A program made the position numbers and the translations under genes. From the NCBI GenBank assembly GCA_016841605.1, contig JAENYV010000008.1, positions 100,138-164,137 on the forward strand: a stretch of 64,000 nt of DNA. The letters run 5' to 3'. A model generated the notes under the pieces. That model made no database searches, was not told the DNA's origin, and was given only the letters and a program-made list of their open reading frames with translations. Each line of letters opens with the position of its first letter. Position 1 is the stretch's first letter. This document shows positions 13,688-62,683 of this stretch, piece by piece. This DNA comes from Dethiobacter alkaliphilus (GTDB lineage Bacteria; Bacillota; Dethiobacteria; DTU022; UBA8154).

Positions 13688-13865
13688 CTCTTATCCAGAG
13701 CGGGGGAGAGATGGGCTCTATGAACCCCGGCAACCGGATCGGTTCAAGGGGAGTCTTGTTGCTACTCAAGGAGCAGTAAGCCTGCCTGAAGACCCGGTCG
13801 GCCGGTGCCAAATCCTACAGGGTCGGCGTTTTTCTTCTTTAACGGCTGTCCTTGGGAGATAAGAG
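13688..13865 (+). promoter_or_regulatory. SAM-I (S-box) riboswitch aptamer
   Basis: Conserved S-box segments are present in order: CTCTTATCCAGAG at the 5' side of P1, ATGAACCCCGGCAACC and GGTGCCAAATCCTACAG. The 5' strand CTCTTATC (13688-13695) pairs with GATAAGAG (13858-13865) to close P1. S-box RNAs bind S-adenosylmethionine and turn off methionine/SAM genes. Here the next gene is metK, so excess SAM should stop its own synthesis. Confidence 0.95.
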
Positions 13866-45499: not shown

Positions 45500-45949
45500 A
45501 TGAACAGGAAAACAGAGCATACTATCTTTAAGCGCGAGGCCGGCAATCCGGGTGAGAATTCCTCATCCAATTCAATTTTTTTTAAACGGGGACTTCCAGG
45601 CCTGGGAAAAAGCCGGTGTTTTATCCTCCAACTCATTGAGAGCAATCCTTTTTTTTATTATTTGAAGTCAATGGAAGAGGAAGAGGTGGGCCTTATTCTG
45701 GTCGACCCCTTTCCCTGTTTTTCCGGGTATGATTTAGAGATACCCGAAGCGGACCAAAAAGAGCTGGAGCTGGAAAAAGAGGAAGATGTTTTGGTCCTTA
45801 CGACGGTAACAGTCTTGGGAGAAAACAAAATGACAACGAATCTGGCCGCGCCCATTATCATTAATGCCCGAAAAAGACTGGCCAAACAAATTATCCTCCC
45901 TGAGAGGATTGAACAAATGCGTACTCCTCTACCGCTAGATGAGGAGTAG
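45500..45949 (+). CDS. fliW: Flagellar assembly factor FliW
   Basis: A 149-residue FliW. Recognisable parts are IFFKRGLPGLG, FILQLIE, FYYLKSMEEEEVGLILVDPF and TTNLAAPIIINARKRLAKQI (residues 110-129). In Bacillus FliW binds CsrA and blocks it, and is itself bound by unassembled flagellin; this couples flagellin translation to export. Here it ends the flgM operon and precedes the first of three csrA genes. Confidence 0.95.
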   Translation: MNRKTEHTIFKREAGNPGENSSSNSIFFKRGLPGLGKSRCFILQLIESNPFFYYLKSMEEEEVGLILVDPFPCFSGYDLEIPEADQKELELEKEEDVLVLTTVTVLGENKMTTNLAAPIIINARKRLAKQIILPERIEQMRTPLPLDEE

Positions 45950-46202: not shown

Positions 46203-46484
46203 ATGCTTGTACTGACCCGCAAAAAGGGACAGAGTATTATGTTGGGAGACGGGATCGAGATCAGCGTGGTTGAAGTGAACGGAGACGCTGTTCGCATCGG
46301 TATTAAGGCTCCCAGGGAACTGACCATCTATCGCCGGGAAATTTATGAAGCTATCCAGGAAGAAAATATTCGCGCCTCAAGGGCTGCTTTGGAGATGGCG
46401 GGTAAATTGAAGAATATCCGCACCTCAAGTTTAAAGGGGGAGAGAGTCCGGAGAGGAAGAAAAACTCCAAAAAATAGTAATTAG
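46203..46484 (+). CDS. csrA: CsrA, paralogue 1 (vegetative)
   Basis: A 93-residue CsrA, an RNA-binding homodimer that recognises GGA in hairpin loops. [17 protein letters not shown] and the RNA-contacting Leu4 and Arg44 (LTIYRREI) are conserved. The C-terminus has a basic extension of about 25 residues. ATG at 46203 is used, since an upstream in-frame ATG lies at the -10 element. It has its own SigA promoter and no GGA hairpin at its ribosome site, in contrast to paralogues 2 and 3. Confidence 0.94.
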
Positions 46485-48741: not shown

Positions 48742-48805
48742 CAGAGTAAAAAAAATACATAAAAATTAAAAAAACTTAATATTCTTTTTTTTATAGTCTA
48801 TCTCT

Positions 48806-48831
48806 TAACCGAATGTTTTTTATGCCGATAA
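48806..48831 (+). promoter_or_regulatory. SigD promoter of flagellin 1
   Basis: TAAC (48806-48809) and GCCGATAA (48824-48831) with a 14-base spacer fit the SigD consensus. Transcription would begin near 48838 and give a leader of about 400 bases, far longer than in Bacillus hag. Confidence 0.85.
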
Positions 48832-48879: not shown

Positions 48880-48918
48880 GGCATGGAGGCCGCAACGCTT
48901 TCACCATGGAGGGTGAAA
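48880..48918 (+). promoter_or_regulatory. Two ATGGAG-loop hairpins in flagellin 1 leader
   Basis: GGC/GCC holds ATGGAG at 48880-48891 (short stem). TTTCACC (48899-48905) and GGTGAAA (48912-48918) hold ATGGAG (48906-48911) on a perfect seven-pair stem. Both display GGA as in CsrA-binding RNAs. Confidence 0.75.
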
Positions 48919-49041
48919 ACAACGTAAATAAGGCGGATAAATAGTATCTTACCTCAAGAAGTCTCTGTCCGGGGGACTACATGAGGAGGAAAATATTGTC
49001 TGCTTATTATTGAATCGTCGCGTTCCGGCCTTTCCGGAAAT

Positions 49042-49112
49042 GCCGTTTTGGGATTATGGCAATCCAAACGGCTGCCTCCGGATAGTTCCAAACAGCGGCG
49101 TTTTTTATTTTT
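49042..49112 (+). terminator. Attenuator-like structure in flagellin 1 leader
   Basis: AACGGCTG (49067-49074) can pair with CAGC and CGTT (49093-49102, GG bulged), followed by a T-rich run to 49112. The competing hairpin GCCGTTT (49042-49048) with AAACGGC (49066-49072), extended by GGATT/AATCC, takes away the terminator's 5' arm. This leaves an on/off choice before the flagellin. What decides it is not shown by the sequence. Confidence 0.55.
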
Positions 49113-49238: not shown

Positions 49239-52200
49239 ATGAGAATCAATCAGAACATTTCCGCACTGAACGCCTACCGCAACCTCAGCAATACAGATAA
49301 CCGCCTCAACCGCTCCCTGGAAAGACTCTCCTCGGGTTTGCGCATTAACCGCGCCGCGGACGACGCGGCCGGCCTTTCCATCAGCGAAAAAATGCGTGCC
49401 CAGATTCGCGGCCTCAACCAGGCCATGCGCAACGCGCAGGACGGCATCTCACTCATTCAGACGGCAGAGGGCGCCTTAAATGAGACCCACTCCATCCTGC
49501 AGCGCATGCGGGAACTGGCTGTGCAGGCTGCCAACGACACCCTTACCATGTCCGATCGCCAGGAAATCCAGAAGGAGATCGACCAGCTTACTCTGGAGAT
49601 CAACCGCATCAGCAGCACCACCGAATTCAACAACAAACAGCTTTTAGACGGGACTACCTCTGCCCTGGTCTCCACAGATCGGCTTTCCACCAGGGTATTC
49701 ATGCGCGACGGCTTGCGCGTCATCGACGAGTTCGGCCAAAAAGCCTCCGGCGGCGGTAACTACAAGCTGTCCATTACCGCCAACCCGGGGACCGCTCAGG
49801 TGCAGAAGAGCGATATCTTTAAAGTCAAGCATGCTCAGGATATCAAGGTTGCCGCTGATGAGCACGTAGGGCATGCCGTATTCCAGGGTGCAGTAGCGGC
49901 TTTTACATCAGCCGGTGGAGCAGGCACAGCGGACTATGAACTTAATTTCAAAGTTGGTGACACGGATTTTAGCGTTACAGAGAGCTTTACAGGTGCACAG
50001 ACGGCAGAGGAGCTTGCTGACGTGCTTGCTGCGGCTATCAATACGGAGATCAGCCGGCAAGAGGGCATGTCGTCCCTGTTGAGGGCTGAGTCCGTAGACC
50101 TGGGAAGCGGAAGCTTCGGGCTTCGTGTCATGCGCATCGATGATCCCGCTGCACTTAGTTCAGCATTCCAAATGGGCGGGACAGTAACCCTGGGCGGAGA
50201 CGGTGCCGGCGGAGGCATAACGGGCCTGCAAGGGTCATTGACGGAATACCGGGCCACCGGCCGGAATGTAACCGCCATGGGCGATATCGACGCTACTACT
50301 TATCTTGCGGGTGATTACCGTGTTCGGACCGAAGACGCTGTGCTGGGAACGGATACGGCAGCTTCTTATGTGCTGGAGGCTGCATCAGGAGCACAGGTAA
50401 CAATCACAGCTAATGATGAAGGCACCGTGGGAAATATGTATACAGTCGAGGTGGTCGATACCGGCAGCGGAAGCGGCGGCCTTAACGTTTCTTTTGCCAA
50501 TGACAAGCTGACGATCGATTTCGGCGGGGACGCCTCGGCCACTGCAGAGGATATTGCAGATGCCATAAACCTTGACGCAAATGCTTCAGCAGTATTCACA
50601 GCAGCGGATACAACGGCAGGCACCTTTGAGGGAGCTGATGGAATCCGGGAGGCTACAGAGCTGGGGGCTGCGGATGGCGGAACGGATGCGAGTGCTGCTA
50701 CGATAACTTTAACAGATGTTGGAGGAGCCGGAAACAGTTTAACTTTTACTGCTGAGGATATAGGTGCACTGGGGAACGACCTTACCATTGAAGTTTCCGA
50801 TGTTGCAGCCGTTGGAGCCGACCCAACCGCTTCCTGGGATTCCGCTACCAAGACAATTACCTTGAATATGGGAACAACTCAAGGAAACAATATAGAAACT
50901 AACTTTGAGAGTGCGATACAGGGCCTAGGAGTGGCCGGAGTCGTTACAGCCGACGACGGTAGCACTTATGATCTCAGTGCTTTTGAAGTTAGCGGGACTG
51001 GTGAATTTGCAGCTGCAGGTAGTGGTGTGCTAGCAGCTGGAATAACTACCGATACAGCTCAGTTGGAAGATGGTGCTGAGGCTGTTAACACTTTTACTGC
51101 AGCGAGCGGAGGTTCGTTTACTGTTGCCGGCATTGATGGGACAGGTTCCGCGGGTGACGCATATACAGTTGAAATATCCAACAGCGGTGCAGGAGGCTTG
51201 GCGATTATCCATGTTGCAGGCGTGTTGGAGATTGACCTGGGGGGAGCCGAGGCAACGACTCAAGAAATCGTAGATGCTATCAACAATGATGCCGGGGCTG
51301 GGGCCGAGTTCTTTGCCGAACTGGTTACAGAAGGCGACTGGGGAGAGTTAACTGACGGACTCGATCTCACAAACCTGGCCGGGGGCCGGAATGCCGTAGT
51401 CGCCGAAGCCAGAACCCAGCAGTATGCACAGAGCGGCAGCGACATCCTAGGTGCTGTTACAGTCAACTCCAGCAACCAGATCAACTCCTCCATCTCCATG
51501 GTTGTGGAGAGTATTGATGAAACCGCAGGAACCGTGACCTTTTCTTATGAATATACAAGCATGACCAAAGACGGTACTGTAACCTCCCTGGAAAATCAGA
51601 CGATTACACTGAATACGGACGATGCCAATGCCAACATGACTGTGGGCGGTGTGACGTTCACGGCCTTTAACCTGACCGCGGCATACAATTTTACAGCCGC
51701 CGACAGGATTGTGCTGAATGTAAACGCCACAGCAAACGCGGCTGATATAGACGACGGTCTAACCGTGTGGCACACCGGTGCCAACGGTCAGACCGCAGAA
51801 GCTGCCGGCTTTGTAGTCGACAACGGAGCCCTGGACGGTTTACAGTCTTCTTTTACTTATTACCAGCTTAATCTCGCCGATGAAACCGCTGACAATTACG
51901 GAGAAGCCGTCAAGTCCGTCCTGGATCTGACCTTTGCCGCCGCCTCTGCGGGGGGGTTGACGGCCAGTGTAACGGAACAGGCGGCTGTTACATTAAACAA
52001 TGCCGCAGGAGATGCCGGCTTTACTGTGTCTGCCCATCAGGACGGCGACTACAGCGGTCCGGCCGGCAACCGGATATCCGTAAAAATAGCGGGTGGCGGT
52101 GCAGGCGGGACAGGAGCAGTAGCTACATTTGCCGATAATACCATTACAATAACAGTTGAAGACGGTGTAGCGGACACTGAAGATATCGTCTATGCCATCA

Positions 52201-53396
52201 ATTCTACTCTTGGCGAGGATTTCACCGCCACAATCGCTAGCGGAGCGGGTGAGACATGGGCTGCTGCCGACGCTGTCACTCAACAGCTTTCCGGCGGTAA
52301 CGTTTACGCCGCAGCCGGCTTTAGTATCGAAGAACAAGCAACATTCGGACACATTGCCGCCCTTGGCACCTCCATCAGTGACATTGACCGCTTCTGGGAT
52401 GCCAACGGTAATTTCCTGGTAGATACTCCCCAGACCATCACACTGATTCAGGGAGATGGCACGAAAGCTTCTTTCACTATTTTTGCTGATGATACCATTG
52501 GGGATATTGTCGATAAAATCGATGAAGCTATCCGTAACGAAAAAACCAGCAACCCCGGCACTATTGAGGTGGGCAAGGGGCTCGGCCAGGGCGAATTTGC
52601 TCCGGAGGGTTCCCAGTTTGCCTATTATGTGACTGATCCTGTTGAATCGGGTTTTGGCTCCGTGCAAGGCACTATGGTCATTAACTCCGCCATCAACGGT
52701 AAAGCCGGGGAGATCAATTTTGTGGGAAATGAGGATATTATTAAGGCGCTAAGCCTCACCACGGTTAATCAAGCAACAGAAAACAAATTTACAGTGAATA
52801 TAACCGATGCCCACAGCGGAGAAACGATTAACGAGAATGTGCAGGTCACCGGTAATATGCTGGTCGGCGCTGTGCATACCAATGTGGATGTGGAGTTTGA
52901 TGTCATGGCCAATATTGATATTGGCTGGGACGAAGAAAACAAGTGTTTTACTTCCGAAACCAGTACTACGGCTTATGACACCTATGTCCACCTGGTGGAC
53001 AGCACCATGGTTTTCCATGTAGGCGCTAATCCGTTGCAGGATGTTTCCGCTGCTATGGGAGATATGAGTGCCCGTGCTCTGGGAATCTATAACATCGTCG
53101 TCCTGGATAATGAGTCCGCCAACGAGGCTATTACCAAGATTGATAATGCCCTCTCCCTGGTCTCAAACGAGCGAGGCAAATTAGGGGCTGTCCAAAACAG
53201 GCTGGAACATACCATCTCCAACCTTGGGGTAGCCTCCGAAAACCTCACAGCCGCGGAATCCCGTATCCGCGATCTGGACTTTGCCCAGGAGATGATGGAG
53301 TTTACCCGTAATCAGGTCCTTATGCAGGCCGGCACGGCCATGCTGGCCCAGGCCAACCAAAAACCGCAGAATGTCCTGCAGCTGCTGGGGGGGTAA
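49239..53396 (+). CDS. fliC: Giant flagellin 1 (1385 aa)
   Basis: The N-terminal 170 residues ([40 protein letters not shown]) and the last 105 ([20 protein letters not shown]) are standard flagellin D0/D1. Common flagellins have 270-500 residues, so about 1100 residues are inserted. The insert contains a domain repeated about four times (near residues 376-455, 487-575, 615-695 and 914-1000). Each copy has a GN-x-YTVEV-like strand, a GGLxVxF-like strand and a TxxxIxxAIN helix. Residues about 1045-1245 are shared with flagellin 2. The insert is rich in Ala, Gly, Asp and Thr and has one Cys. It would form a thick or decorated filament. Controlled by SigD and a GGA-hairpin leader. Confidence 0.95.
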
Positions 53397-53426: not shown

Positions 53427-53475
53427 AAAGGAAGGCAGGGATGCCGTTACCTTAATATCATCAGGGAGGATGATA
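53427..53475 (+). promoter_or_regulatory. Paired GGA-loop hairpins before small ORF/csrA 2
   Basis: GGC/GCC with loop AGGGAT (53434-53445), with outer AAGG/CCTT pairing, is followed by TATCATC/GATGATA with loop AGGGAG (53456-53475). The second loop is the ribosome site of the small ORF at 53478. No terminator is seen between the flagellin 1 stop and this point, so it may be cotranscribed with the flagellin. Confidence 0.8.
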
Positions 53476-53477
53476 AA

Positions 53478-53612
53478 ATGCACGACACATTAATCTCTTT
53501 CGGATCGAACGGAAAAATTGCCGGTTTTCATAACTTTCTTTACTGCTGCTCTTATGAATTGTTCTTCAACACCCCGCTTCGTGTGGGAGGTGAATTTTGT
53601 GCTGGTACTTAA
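53478..53612 (+). CDS. Small leader ORF overlapping csrA 2
   Basis: A 44-codon frame beginning MHDTLISFGSNGKIAG. It starts three bases after an SD-containing hairpin with loop AGGGAG and ends 14 bases inside the csrA 2 frame. The same layout occurs before csrA 3. It could be a leader peptide that couples csrA translation to the hairpin. The two leader peptides are not alike in sequence, which suggests that translation itself matters rather than the product. Confidence 0.55.
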   Translation: MHDTLISFGSNGKIAGFHNFLYCCSYELFFNTPLRVGGEFCAGT

Positions 53613-53871
53613 AAGAAAGGTAGAGGAATGTATTACCATTGCCGACAAAATCAAGATCAAAGTTCTCTCCATCACCGGTGAAAGCGTCAACCTCGGCGTT
53701 GATGCCCCCAGAGAGGTACAGGTTCTGCGCACGGAAAATCTGAACGAAAACGGCAACGGCAACGGAAATGGCATCAGCATCATTAATGGAAACGGTAAAA
53801 AGAACGGGAAAAGAAATTCCTACAATGGTAGTAAAGGTTCAGGTGGAAACGGCAAAAAAACGATCCGATAA
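53599..53871 (+). CDS. csrA: CsrA, paralogue 2 with Asn/Gly-rich tail
   Basis: A 90-residue CsrA-like protein. The CsrA core (1-48) starts MLVLKRKVEECITIADKIKI and keeps Leu4 and Arg44 (VQVLRTE). The C-terminal half is an unusual low-complexity tail of Asn, Gly, Lys and Ser (GNGNGNG; NGKKNGKRN). GTG start after GGGAGGTG; it overlaps the upstream small ORF by 14 bases, so translation is probably coupled. The RxxE/REE end of the helix typical of CsrA 1 is replaced, and the protein may differ in FliW binding. Confidence 0.85.
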   Translation: MLVLKRKVEECITIADKIKIKVLSITGESVNLGVDAPREVQVLRTENLNENGNGNGNGISIINGNGKKNGKRNSYNGSKGSGGNGKKTIR

Positions 53872-54068: not shown

Positions 54069-54347
54069 ATGTATAAAGACCAAAGAATTCCATCCTGGCT
54101 GGACCCCCTTTTCTGGGATCTTGATCCCCAAGAATTAAATCTTAATCAGCACTATATTTATATTGTGGAAAGGATCCTGAACTTTGGTGATCTTCCTGCA
54201 CTGCGGTGGCTTTTCATTACTTATGAAAAAGAAACCATTCGCGAAGCTGTGACCCTCAGCCGGGGGTTAACGATGAAGACGGCCCTCTGCTGGCAGAACT
54301 ATTTTGGCCTTAAAAAGGAGGATATGCGGTGTACTGGTCGGTTTTAG
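54069..54347 (+). CDS. DUF6922-like antitoxin partner of AbiEii
   Basis: A 92-residue protein of the type that precedes AbiEii nucleotidyltransferases: LFWDLDPQELNLNQHYIYIV, then ERILNFGDLPALRWLF and a C-terminal helix. Such proteins are presumed antitoxins. The start is ATG at 54069 after AAGGGAAGAAG. Its end overlaps the toxin start by 19 bases. Confidence 0.7.
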   Translation: MYKDQRIPSWLDPLFWDLDPQELNLNQHYIYIVERILNFGDLPALRWLFITYEKETIREAVTLSRGLTMKTALCWQNYFGLKKEDMRCTGRF

Positions 54348-54967
54348 ATGAGAAAAGGATAACCTTATTAAAAAAAATTTTGAAAAATATACCTCTTGCT
54401 GAAAGCTACTTGGCCGGTGGTACGGCGCTGGCGCTTATGTTGGGCCATCGGGTATCCTATGATTTTGACTGGTTTGCTCCTGTTTCCTTTGATCCGGAAG
54501 ATGTTTCCCGCACACTTTCGCACGCAGGAAAAATTGTTATTACTGAAACAACCAGAGGTTCTTTTCATGGTTTTGTCGATGGTATCCAGGTAACCTGGCT
54601 GTTTTATCCCAATCCCCTTTTGTTCGACAAAGTCATGGTTAAAGAACTGCCAAACTTCTATCTTTCCTCACTACCGGATATCGGTCTCATGAAGTGGGCT
54701 GCAATCAGTCATCGAGGGGCCAGAAGGGATTTTATTGACCTCTACTATATTTGCCGGCAAGGATATGAACTGAAAAAGCTTTTTCTCCTATTGGATAAAA
54801 AATTCCCCGGAGCGGAGATTAATCATTATCATATGGTAAAAAGCCTATCCTATTTTTTTGATGCGGAAAGAGAGGCTCATCCTCAAATGATTAAGGAAGT
54901 AAGCTGGAAGACGGTAAAAGCATTTTTTATAGAAGAACAAAAAAAACTTTTAACAAAACTTTTATAA
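54329..54967 (+). CDS. AbiEii/AbiGii-type nucleotidyltransferase toxin
   Basis: A 212-residue nucleotidyltransferase-fold protein. The nucleotide-binding start YLAGGTALALMLGHRVSYDF (residues 28-47) has the GGT and the DxD pair (DFDWF). The segment DIGLMKWAAISHRGARRDFI matches motif III of the AbiE family. AbiE toxins transfer nucleotides, and in one case to tRNA 3' ends; the antitoxin gene precedes it. GTG start with AAGGAGG seven bases upstream. Confidence 0.85.
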   Translation: MYWSVLDEKRITLLKKILKNIPLAESYLAGGTALALMLGHRVSYDFDWFAPVSFDPEDVSRTLSHAGKIVITETTRGSFHGFVDGIQVTWLFYPNPLLFDKVMVKELPNFYLSSLPDIGLMKWAAISHRGARRDFIDLYYICRQGYELKKLFLLLDKKFPGAEINHYHMVKSLSYFFDAEREAHPQMIKEVSWKTVKAFFIEEQKKLLTKLL

Positions 54968-54989
54968 GCTCTTTTCTTTTTTCCTCCCT

Positions 54990-55016
54990 TAACTTTTTCT
55001 TTAAACAGGACGATAA
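54990..55016 (+). promoter_or_regulatory. SigD promoter of csrA 3 leader
   Basis: TAAC (54990-54993) and GACGATAA (55009-55016) with a 15-base spacer. The -35 form TAAC is the same as for flagellin 1. Confidence 0.75.
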
Positions 55017-55085
55017 TAAATATGGGAAAGGTACTTACTTTACAACACTGTTTTCTCTCCGGCGGAAGTCTTTCAGCAGCAGTAT

Positions 55086-55249
55086 GAGCGCCGAGGATCG
55101 GCGACTCAGGCTTGCTTGAGAGCTTCCCCAAAGCCGGAAGAAAAAGTGGACATCTTTTCTGCACAGGTGATGGAGCACCTGAGAATTTTCTTACGGATGG
55201 AGCCGTCTGGGGTAAAAGGGAGTTTACCCTCGCGGCTCTTTATTTTTTG
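55086..55249 (+). ncRNA. Possible CsrB-like sponge RNA / csrA 3 attenuated leader
   Basis: A SigD-initiated RNA of about 225 bases ending at an internal terminator. GGA loops are: AGGAT on CGCCG/CGGCG plus GAG/CTC (55086-55107), TGGACAT on AAAAG/CTTTT (55142-55158), ATGGAG on CAGGTG/CACCTG (55164-55181), ATGGAG on ACGG/CCGT (55193-55206) and AGGGAG at the terminator tip (55217-55222). Five GGA hairpins in 140 bases is like the CsrB/RsmZ family of CsrA-sequestering RNAs of proteobacteria. Readthrough would lead to csrA 3. Confidence 0.6.
55200..55249 (+). terminator. Terminator in csrA 3 leader, overlapping an ATGGAG hairpin
   Basis: GAGCCG (55200-55205) pairs with CGGCTC (55233-55238), followed by TTTATTTTTT. 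The inner stem GGGTAAA/TTTACCC carries the loop AGGGAG (55217-55222). The 5' arm lies inside the hairpin ACGG-loop ATGGAG-CCGT (55193-55206), so both cannot form at once. Confidence 0.75.
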
Positions 55250-55261
55250 TATTTTTTAAAA

Positions 55262-55297
55262 CTGGCAGGGAAGCCAGAGTCAATCAAGGAGGATTGA
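55262..55297 (+). promoter_or_regulatory. Paired GGA-loop hairpins before small ORF/csrA 3
   Basis: CTGGC/GCCAG with loop AGGGAA (55262-55277) is followed by TCAATC/GATTGA with loop AAGGAG (55280-55297). The second is the ribosome-binding site of the small ORF at 55303. The GGA cores are 19 bases apart. Confidence 0.85.
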
Positions 55298-55302
55298 GAC
55301 AA

Positions 55303-55419
55303 ATGAATAGGATGTATGTTTCGGACAGGTGCTCCTCCAGGATCGCAGGCGGCAACTGTGGCCGGCCATTTACCTTTTCTGCAGAGCTTGTGGGTAAAGG
55401 AGATGAGTTGCCATGTTAG
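55303..55419 (+). CDS. Small leader ORF overlapping csrA 3
   Basis: A 38-codon frame beginning MNRMYVSDRCSSRIAGG. It starts five bases after the SD hairpin with loop AAGGAG and its stop overlaps the csrA 3 start (ATGTTAG). It mirrors the small ORF before csrA 2. The weak AAAGGAG site before csrA 3 lies within this ORF, so csrA 3 translation probably depends on it. Confidence 0.55.
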   Translation: MNRMYVSDRCSSRIAGGNCGRPFTFSAELVGKGDELPC

Positions 55420-55610
55420 TACTGCGCCGCAAACTTGAAGAAGGTCTGCTTATCGACGGAAAGATCAGGGTGAGGATCCTGGGAATCGAGGGGGATAACG
55501 TTAAGATCGGCATAGAAGCACCCAGAGACATTTCTATTCTCCGCACGGAAGTCGGTGAAATGCTGGAACAGAGCCGCTCTGTCCACAAAAAATCAGGTTG
55601 CGGAGCCTGA
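55413..55610 (+). CDS. csrA: CsrA, paralogue 3 (SigD-driven)
   Basis: A 65-residue CsrA of standard length. MLVLRRKLEEGLLIDGKIRV (1-20) and the RNA-binding Leu4 and Arg44 (ISILRTEV) are conserved. Overlaps the stop of an upstream small ORF. It is controlled by SigD, an attenuator and GGA hairpins, all predicted. It lies just before the flagellin 2 unit. Confidence 0.9.
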   Translation: MLVLRRKLEEGLLIDGKIRVRILGIEGDNVKIGIEAPRDISILRTEVGEMLEQSRSVHKKSGCGA

Positions 55611-55642
55611 ACCGGAAAATGTGAGTTTTCTGCGAATAAAAA

Positions 55643-55691
55643 CATAAGCGAAAAGGCCCTCTGTTTTTGACAAAGGGCCTTTTCGCTTATG
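55643..55691. terminator. 18-base perfect inverted repeat after csrA 3
   Basis: CATAAGCGAAAAGGCCCT (55643-55660) and its exact inverse (55674-55691) surround a 13-base loop. The part AAAAGGCCCT/AGGGCCTTTT makes a strong bidirectional intrinsic terminator. Confidence 0.9.
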
Positions 55692-55733
55692 CATTATCTT
55701 AATTAATTTTTTAAAAACAATCCCCTGGCCCCT

Positions 55734-55759
55734 TAAAAAGTATTTTTTGCGGACGATAT
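55734..55759 (+). promoter_or_regulatory. SigD promoter of flagellin 2 unit
   Basis: TAAA (55734-55737) and GACGATAT (55752-55759) with a 14-base spacer, a near-consensus SigD promoter. Transcription would begin near 55766. Confidence 0.85.
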
Positions 55760-55794
55760 AATAAACAAGGAAGTCACTATAACTGAATATAACA

Positions 55795-55846
55795 GGGGTC
55801 ACGGACGACCCCGACCCGAAACGCAAGGATAAGCGGATGGAGCCGT
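55795..55846 (+). promoter_or_regulatory. GGA-loop hairpins in flagellin 2 leader
   Basis: GGGGTC/GACCCC holds ACGGAC (55795-55812). CGC/GCG holds AAGGATAA (55822-55835, weak). GCGG/CCGT holds ATGGAG (55833-55846), with one G-T pair. They are the first structures of the transcript. Confidence 0.7.
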
Positions 55847-55872
55847 ACTGTTACAGTACGGTTTTGTTATTT
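55843..55872 (+). terminator. Leader terminator T1, overlapping an ATGGAG hairpin
   Basis: CCGTACTG (55843-55850) and CAGTACGG (55854-55861) pair perfectly, followed by TTTTGTTATTT. Its first four bases CCGT are also the 3' arm of the ATGGAG hairpin at 55833-55846, so the two exclude each other, just as in the csrA 3 leader. Confidence 0.75.
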
Positions 55873-55884
55873 ATGGGATTTTAA

Positions 55885-55937
55885 GGACGGAGCCCGGAGC
55901 GGCTTTTTTAGCGCTCTCTGCTCCGTCCTTTTTGTTT
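55885..55937 (+). terminator. Leader terminator T2
   Basis: GGACGGAGC (55885-55893) and GCTCCGTCC (55920-55928) pair perfectly, followed by TTTTTGTTT. It makes a second stop before the first gene of the unit. Flagellin 2 must be expressed by readthrough of both terminators or from a promoter that I did not find. Confidence 0.8.
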
Positions 55938-56016: not shown

Positions 56017-56271
56017 ATGGAGATGAAAACGCAAACTTTGCACCTACAGCAGCTAATGCACCAGACCGGATACGGAACAGTTTTTTACGGAGCAATAAAC
56101 TCCGGTCCCTCCGGAGATATGGGCAGCAAAGCCGCCGGCAAGGCTGCCGGCGACCAGCTCAGCTTCAGCGAGGTTTTGGCCGGCGAAAATGAAAAGCAGC
56201 GGAAGATGCAGCACTTAAGAACAGGATACCAGGAAGAGTTGAAAAAAGTGCAGACCATTTATCCGTGGTAA
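56017..56271 (+). CDS. Small protein of unknown function before flagellin 2
   Basis: An 84-residue protein, hydrophilic and partly helical, starting MEMKTQTLHLQQLMHQTGYG. GGAAGGAG precedes ATG; part of this site pairs in a CTTC/GAAG hairpin. It is inside the SigD flagellin 2 transcript, so a flagellar role is likely. The pattern of a Ser/Gly/Ala linker and a helical end recalls rod/hook-basal FliE-like proteins, but I cannot support that identity. Confidence 0.55.
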   Translation: MEMKTQTLHLQQLMHQTGYGTVFYGAINSGPSGDMGSKAAGKAAGDQLSFSEVLAGENEKQRKMQHLRTGYQEELKKVQTIYPW

Positions 56272-61961: not shown

Positions 61962-62003
61962 AAAATTAAAGAGGTCAGACTAGTCATTATGGGAGGTGGT
62001 TTT

Positions 62004-62267
62004 ATGACTTATTCCAATAAAAATACGACATGGCAATTGCAAACGGCAAAAAGCAAATTTAGTGAGGTAGTAAGCTATGCTCTTAAAGGCTATCCACAGC
62101 TGATTACAAAAAACGGCAAACCTGCAGTTTACGTAATTTCATTTGAAGAATACGAGAAAATAACCAGGAAAGTAGCATTGAAAGATGTTTTGCTGAATTC
62201 CCCCCACAGAGATACCGAAATTTTTGTAAATAGACAAAAAGAGACTGGAAGGGGTTCTGTAATTTGA
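62004..62267 (+). CDS. Phd/YefM-type antitoxin
   Basis: An 87-residue antitoxin. The DNA-binding Phd/YefM fold is shown by WQLQTAKSKFSEVVSYALKG (residues 10-29) and PQLITKNGKPAVYVISFEEY (residues 31-50). The C-terminus would bind the toxin. ATG at 62004 after GGGAGGTGG. The stop overlaps the toxin start by four bases. Confidence 0.9.
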   Translation: MTYSNKNTTWQLQTAKSKFSEVVSYALKGYPQLITKNGKPAVYVISFEEYEKITRKVALKDVLLNSPHRDTEIFVNRQKETGRGSVI

Positions 62268-62683
62268 GCTTCCTGGTAGATACTTGTTTTATATCTGAAT
62301 TAAGAAAACCATCACCGCAACAATCTGTATTAAATTGGTTAAATGCAATTATTGAGAGCGAATTATATATCAGTTCTTTAAGTATTGGTGAACTGCAATA
62401 TGGTATTGCATTATTACCGGATGGAAATAAAAAAAAAGACCTTACCACCTGGCTGGATCTGGTTGTTAAGGGATTCGACAGTAGAGTCTTGCCTGTTCAC
62501 AATGATGTTTGCGTGGTTTGGGGAAAGATGAGAGCAAACGCGCAAAAAAAAGGGTTAAACCTTTCTGTAATAGACGGATTATTAGCTGCAACATGCGCTG
62601 TATATAAACTCACCTTTGTAACAAGAAATACGAAAGATGTTGATTTTACCGGGATAGGTATTGTTAGCCCGTGGGATGACTAA
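62264..62683 (+). CDS. vapC: VapC-type PIN domain toxin
   Basis: A 139-residue PIN-domain RNase. Acidic residues of the site are in FLVDTCFISEL (Asp6), SIGELQYGI, VIDGLLAATC and TRNTKDVDF. TTG start overlaps the antitoxin stop. VapC toxins cut tRNA or rRNA; the target here is unknown. Confidence 0.9.
   Translation: MSFLVDTCFISELRKPSPQQSVLNWLNAIIESELYISSLSIGELQYGIALLPDGNKKKDLTTWLDLVVKGFDSRVLPVHNDVCVVWGKMRANAQKKGLNLSVIDGLLAATCAVYKLTFVTRNTKDVDFTGIGIVSPWDD

Follow-up and report, generated by a model that had tools for sequence, protein, structure and literature searches.

A SigD-type leader upstream of a csrA paralog carries an intrinsic terminator that may sense CsrA in a FliW-bearing Bacillota

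The region upstream of csrA3, one of three csrA genes in the 64 kb stretch of Dethiobacter alkaliphilus DNA analysed here (the window; the genome containing it measures 4.07 Mb), may be a leader transcribed from a SigD promoter and closed by an intrinsic terminator that senses CsrA, with a sister version before flagellin 2; judged from sequence, we give this reading a probability of about 0.45. The leaders share a layout that is conserved between genomes, a hairpin of CsrA-site type and the terminator exclude one another, and terminators with two GGA motifs recur in other lineages. The most widely conserved part is this terminator, with one GGA at its foot and one at its apex, and not an array of many sites.

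Firmicute CsrA is thought to be controlled by FliW, and small RNA antagonists of CsrA are known from gammaproteobacteria. The flagellar locus of the window runs flgK, flgL, fliW, csrA1, flagellin 1, csrA2, csrA3, an 84-aa ORF and flagellin 2, and Pfam confirms the three csrA genes, fliW and both flagellins:

45500-45949, forward strand: fliW (Pfam PF02623, 9.7e-33)
46203-46484, forward strand: csrA1 (Pfam), with the IQEENIRA segment common to FliW-binding CsrA proteins
49239-53396, forward strand: flagellin 1 (Pfam)
53599-53871, forward strand: csrA2 (Pfam PF02599, 1.4e-16), an Asn/Gly/Lys-rich tail replacing the C-terminal segment
55413-55610, forward strand: csrA3, 65 aa (Pfam PF02599, 2e-19), without the FliW-binding C-terminal segment
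56507-61582, forward strand: flagellin 2 (Pfam)

The flagellins are unusually large (1385 and 1691 aa). The C-terminal segment of CsrA1 matches that of B. subtilis and Geobacillus-type CsrA; this segment, IQxENxxA, which B. subtilis CsrA and chain 5dmb_D both have, is missing from CsrA2 and CsrA3 in all five genomes that share the locus, and both paralogs thus lack the mark of a FliW-regulated CsrA. Both retain the RNA-binding residues L4 and R44. As neither has the FliW-binding segment, control of both paralogs at the RNA level would make sense. In the CsrA2 proteins of the five genomes, variable Asn/Gly/Lys-rich tails stand where the C-terminal helix would be.

The leader of csrA3 comprises the following elements:

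54989-55016, forward strand: SigD-like promoter, TTAA-N16-GACGATAA, 10/12 to the B. subtilis consensus
55022-55249, forward strand: predicted terminated leader RNA of ~225 nt, non-coding, with nine GGAs; the transcription start is predicted
55089-55103, forward strand: GGA hairpin cgccg[AGGAT]cggcg, with conserved loop and covarying closing pair
55164-55181, forward strand: GGA hexaloop hairpin caggtg[ATGGAG]cacctg, in 5/5 genomes
55193-55206, forward strand: putative antiterminator acgg[ATGGAG]ccgt, overlapping the terminator 5' arm; stem of 4 bp in the window's genus
55199-55239, with a U tract to 55249, forward strand: intrinsic terminator with a GGA at its 5' foot and an AGGGAG apical loop

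The apical hairpin of the terminator is ggggtaaa[AGGGAG]tttaccct, and its GGA lies 20 nt from that at the foot. The whole leader folds at -91.8 kcal/mol (z = -4.9 against shuffles) and contains nine GGAs (5.8 in shuffles), four of which lie in hairpin loops (0.48 in shuffles, P about 0.001) when a GGA hairpin is strictly defined by a GGA in a loop of 5-7 nt on a stem of 4 bp or more. By this measure it is the GGA-hairpin maximum of the entire 64 kb on both strands, and one of the four hairpins is the terminator's own loop. The original prediction had a SigD-made, terminated RNA of about 225 nt carrying five GGA hairpins and no gene. The promoter, terminator and U tract predict such an RNA, and the enrichment of GGA hairpins is real; by the strict rule the five become four. 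No Rfam family matched the csrA3 or flagellin leaders. Weak Rfam hits to Thr_leader at 55605-55773 correspond to a plain bidirectional terminator and were set aside.

Related elements lie before both flagellin genes and at the csrA2 and csrA3 ribosome binding sites (RBS):

48805-48831, forward strand: SigD-like promoter of the flagellin 1 leader, TTAA-N15-GCCGATAA, 11/12 to consensus
48880-49112, forward strand: flagellin 1 leader, with GGC[ATGGAG]GCC, TTTCACC[ATGGAG]GGTGAAA and a terminator; both hexaloop hairpins conserved
53458-53610, forward strand: RBS within a GGA hairpin, and a small ORF (53480-53610) that overlaps the start of csrA2
55262-55297, forward strand: two GGA hairpins at the csrA3 RBS, past the terminator and like BS1/BS2 of hag, ctggc[AGGGAA]gccag and tcaatc[AAGGAG]gattga
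55303-55419, forward strand: small ORF of 38 codons; it begins at the RBS within the hairpin and extends over the start codon of csrA3
55734-55759, forward strand: SigD-like promoter of the flagellin 2 leader, TAAA-N14-GACGATAT, 11/12 to consensus
55795-55870, forward strand: flagellin 2 leader core, ggggtc[ACGGAC]gacccc followed by gcgg[ATGGAG]ccgt
55887-55935, forward strand: second terminator of the flagellin 2 leader

The csrA3 leader and both flagellin leaders thus follow a common plan of SigD box, GGA hairpins, terminator and hag-like GGA hairpins at the RBS. The flagellin leaders fold with z of -7.1 (flagellin 1) and -6.1 (flagellin 2), and in the latter the first terminator (55843-55861) is overlapped at its 5' arm by gcgg[ATGGAG]ccgt. 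Three GGA hairpins had been claimed for the flagellin 2 leader, and three do precede its first terminator, one with a stem of 3 bp; the strict rule likewise gives three for the whole leader (P 0.003). Of the two claimed for flagellin 1, both are present in 5/5 genomes and one passes the strict rule, a number that by itself is not significant (P 0.32). Flagellin 1, csrA3 and flagellin 2 each carry the pair of GGA hairpins typical of hag, one over the Shine-Dalgarno sequence, and the csrA2 leader has a Shine-Dalgarno hairpin plus a shorter upstream GGA hairpin. We located ATCARGGAGGAT, the sequence of the RBS hairpin, at six places in the genome; four lie at these genes and two seem to fall within coding sequence. 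Since the small ORFs start at a GGA-hairpin RBS and overlap the csrA2 and csrA3 start codons, csrA translation may be coupled to theirs. Another small ORF lies at the equivalent place in one relative (G014); none precedes csrA3 in two others (G001 and G002).

In the csrA3 leader the hairpin at 55193-55206 shares bases with the terminator, and the two cannot coexist. Keeping the CsrA-site hairpin costs 5-13 kcal/mol across the leaders, so that the RNA alone should by default terminate and yield a short RNA. The exclusive hairpin has at least 4 bp in 9/11 leaders and the foot GGA is present in all; the csrA3 antiterminator stem is just 2-3 bp in G006 and G014. These leaders have the two marks of an attenuator, namely an intrinsic terminator between promoter and first gene and an alternative hairpin exclusive with it. 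Among the 41 terminator-like sites of the window, an ANGGAG hairpin lies across the 5' arm only at csrA3 and flagellin 2; one more overlap, on the minus strand at the window start, involves another loop.

One further strong copy in the genome was found with a covariance model of the leader's 3' part (C33, 58.8 bits, E 7.6e-13). This minimal copy (L033:1501-2396 of G000:C33) consists of a SigD box of its own, the 5' GGAAAAGG and the core of the terminator, without the middle hairpins. An 8-bp hairpin, TTTTGCGG[AAGGAG]CCGTGAAG, again exclusive with the terminator, holds its foot GGA. It precedes an orphan 255-aa gene with a plain RBS, for which we found no homolog in 22 relatives and no Pfam domain. 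A third match of the model (R1), on C35 (18.5 bits, E 0.27), was dropped as it has no SigD box or GGA layout, and of the other genomic occurrences of CGGANGGAGCCG, which include the minus-strand L045 and L047, the three that were read (L046, L050 and L051) are without the SigD-leader-terminator layout.

A csrA search of 40 relatives returned three csrA genes in G001 and G002, of the window's genus, and in G006 and G014, of another genus of the family; the rest have at most one. The order flagellin 1 - csrA2 - csrA3 - flagellin 2 and the three terminated leaders are kept in 5/5 genomes, spanning two Dethiobacteraceae-like genera, and the genomes with a matching csrA3 terminator are metagenome-assembled Bacillota. 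In the window, DUF6922 and AbiEii-like genes are interposed between csrA2 and csrA3 (54069-54967); this gap is short in G006, and in G001 just a fragment of the AbiEii-like gene is left. The 84-aa ORF that separates the leader of flagellin 2 from its gene (56017-56271) has no Pfam match, and homologs stand at the same position in G001, G002 and G014.

The csrA3 promoter pattern TAAM-N14-16-MCGATAW is retained in 5/5 genomes. The best-conserved parts of the leader are CAGGUG[ANGGAG]CRCCUG, GGAUGGAGCCGU and GGGUAAA[ANGGAG]UUURCCC..CGGCUCUUU, and essentially the N alone varies in the ANGGAG hexaloops among the five genomes. The variable middle of the leader retains the [AGGAU] loop with its covarying closing pair and a long-range helix in which the 5' GGAAAGG pairs with CCUUUUCC; the 3' helices and terminator are almost invariant, which makes covariation there uninformative. 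In 5/5 genomes RCGG[ANGGAG]CCGU overlaps the 5' arm of the flagellin 2 terminator, despite the different sequence of that terminator. No internal terminator was seen in the single-csrA relatives with readable flagellin leaders, and these leaders are short. When 84,980 genomes were searched with the csrA3 terminator pattern, only the four known relatives matched. As a sequence, the csrA3 leader is restricted to five genomes; terminators of the two-GGA design extend further.

In a sample of the phylum, 292 of 398 genomes have csrA and six of these carry three or more copies. Flagellin genes with adjoining csrA paralogs also occur in G344, of the same class, and in G429 and G153, of other families; upstream of both kinds of gene lie terminators that follow GGACGN...[AGGAC or AGGAG]...NCGUC-U. 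A pattern search added G468, G471 and G487, with terminators before a flagellin, a csrA or a csrA-like remnant. These far lineages were selected for extra csrA genes, and the copies inside G429 and inside G487 are related. The GGA-to-GGA spacing is 28-34 nt in the far lineages, against exactly 20 nt in the window's clade. We compared these GGACGA-type terminators by pattern and by ungapped apical hairpins: 95% of cells in the apical stems, which enclose a constant loop, are paired, and covariation is 0.607 (0.336 when shuffled, at most 0.20 in slid controls), which, the stem sequences being mutually related, is support and not proof. Among 488 terminator-like structures at the examined loci, 16 carry the pair of GGAs, one at the foot and one in the apical loop; 12 of the 16 are these csrA or flagellin terminators. 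Eight of the 14 phylum matches to the GGACGA-type pattern were without fold or context and appeared chance-like. The promoter serving each terminator of G344 and the G429 family is less clear than in the window, and some of these terminators may be intercistronic. Tandem csrA paralogs beside flagellins, with GGA-loop terminators between them, can be seen at L107 16700-17560, L108 11100-12200 and L109 4100-4900 (G344, G429 and G153). In the flagellin leaders of L107, L108, L109, L063, L067, L069 and L075 a separate conserved hairpin stands just 5' of the RBS, in the form AAUAAGCC...GGCUUGUUAUA or AGUAGGUCAA...UUGACUUAUUAUA.

In the mechanism that we infer, the terminator would form when CsrA is absent and a short GGA-bearing RNA would be released. 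With plentiful free CsrA, one dimer of whichever paralog acts would bridge the foot and apical GGAs, 20 nt apart; CsrA dimers bridge sites 10-63 nt apart (PMC7652899), a range that takes in both the 20 nt and the 28-34 nt spacings. In the window's genus the bridging protein would stabilise the hexaloop hairpin ACGG-AUGGAG-CCGU, and by holding the foot of the 5' arm outside the stem would allow read-through. CsrA would additionally cover the GGA hairpin at the RBS, so that the read-through mRNA may stay untranslated until CsrA is withdrawn. If the released leader is abundant, its extra conserved GGA hairpins may secondarily titrate CsrA in trans. CsrA usually represses flagellin. Read-through driven by CsrA would oppose this usual effect, and the sign of the control, which is not readable from sequence, could differ from the one given here.

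The nearest precedent is in Legionella pneumophila, where CsrA stabilises an anti-terminator with A(N)GGA in its loop (PMC5338858); the tkt/gap anti-terminator and the CsrA-tuned TPP riboswitch of that organism resemble the present leaders in that an A(N)GGA loop is exclusive with a terminator hairpin, and at tkt/gap CsrA favours read-through, as proposed here. The gap case, however, lies within coding sequence and is Rho-dependent, whereas the terminators here are intrinsic and stand in leaders of csrA paralogs and flagellins, with GGAs at foot and apex, in FliW-bearing Bacillota. The Bgl/Sac (RAT) antiterminators are likewise protein-bound hairpins that overlap an intrinsic terminator at its 5' arm, but protein, RNA motif and signal are unrelated. 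B. subtilis hag (BS1, BS2) is alike in its pair of GGA hairpins, of which the second lies at the Shine-Dalgarno sequence, in its SigD dependence and in its FliW background; it lacks an internal terminator and GGA hairpins further upstream, and here csrA2 and csrA3 also bear RBS hairpins. We file the csrA3 leader, on present evidence, as a putative protein-responsive attenuator with CsrA sites, outside the CsrB family.

The original prediction was that the terminated leaders are CsrB-like sponges, that is, stable SigD-dependent sRNAs that would mainly titrate CsrA, chiefly the FliW-insensitive paralogs, and so free flagellin translation in motile cells. Its descriptive part stands: a SigD-type terminated non-coding RNA with conserved GGA hairpins lies beside csrA in a FliW organism. 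The csrA3 leader has the multiple sites expected of a sponge (nine GGAs, four in hairpin loops, within some 225-230 nt), two conserved hairpins fall outside the terminator core, and like CsrB, CsrC and RsmZ it is non-coding, ends at an intrinsic terminator and presents GGAs in hairpin loops, with CAGGA(U/A/C)G-like loops of the kind found in those RNAs appearing in the far lineages. The C. jejuni flaA leader, which also belongs to a flagellar gene, has GGA hexaloops and comes from an organism with both CsrA and FliW, can titrate CsrA alongside FliW (PMC4894983), and EutX/Rli55 is a Firmicute sponge made from a terminated RNA with antiterminator-protein sites near the terminator (PMC5821096). 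These systems also differ from the present leaders: CsrB has 22 GGAs and CsrB/CsrC/RsmZ are under BarA-UvrY control, whereas the leaders here have far fewer sites, are SigD-type and stand as leaders of genes; the flaA RNA is a full mRNA that lacks any internal terminator; and EutX/Rli55 binds the ANTAR protein EutV, with an AdoCbl riboswitch as the switch. The comparisons between genomes favour a role in cis. Every copy found precedes an ORF, with the csrA3 terminator lying between promoter and csrA3, which does not fit an independent non-coding gene. Because the minimal copy and the far-lineage leaders are few-sited, with mostly the terminator pair, and because one site overlaps the terminator arm, where termination would bury it, we place the cis role first; a terminator-overlapping CsrA site is something that a sponge does not need. 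We regard a mainly trans-acting sponge as unlikely, although the extra conserved hairpins of the csrA3 leader may leave room for such a role on top of attenuation.

Two further readings concern the terminator itself. That its GGAs are inert, with CsrA acting only at the RBS hairpins as on hag, would account for the paired RBS hairpins by translational repression alone, and a GGA inside the terminator stem of E. coli CsrB was suspected of playing no part as a CsrA site (PMC5027483). Strong terminators after a SigD promoter would then block expression of csrA3 and flagellin 2 unless relieved, and the foot-and-apex pair is found again, with stems that covary, in separate lineages; we find this reading quite improbable. 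Still harder to sustain is the opposite sign, in which CsrA bound at the apical loop would stabilise the terminator, a further negative step on top of hag-type repression. All copies have the apical GGA loop, the sign would agree with repression at the RBS hairpins, and RsmA stabilises a weak hairpin in psl (PMC7652899), yet the terminator is by itself already very stable (-22 to -35 kcal/mol), no default antiterminator is evident and the foot GGA is left unexplained.

Across genomes, FliW is anticorrelated with BarA-UvrY, the driver of the Csr sRNAs (PMC4682653), and a review considers the joint action of FliW and sRNAs undetermined in any species (PMC7652899). In the open-access literature we found no description of a CsrA-site terminator design in Firmicutes. 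The attenuator, if real, would have CsrA acting on intrinsic terminators, would account for the restraint of extra csrA copies that have no FliW-binding segment, and as a conserved, recurrent RNA element would bring RNA-level CsrA control into FliW-bearing bacteria. A more speculative extension, which we consider doubtful, is that in several Bacillota the csrA paralogs that have escaped FliW and the neighbouring flagellins are run by foot-plus-apex-GGA terminators through both cis antitermination and trans sponge RNAs; FliW and RNA antagonists of CsrA would then operate side by side in one cell.

Elsewhere in the window, the sole Rfam match is a SAM riboswitch (RF00162) at 13688-13865, and two small neighbouring ORFs past flagellin 2 (61989-62683) have, by eye only, the look of an antitoxin and a PIN-type toxin.
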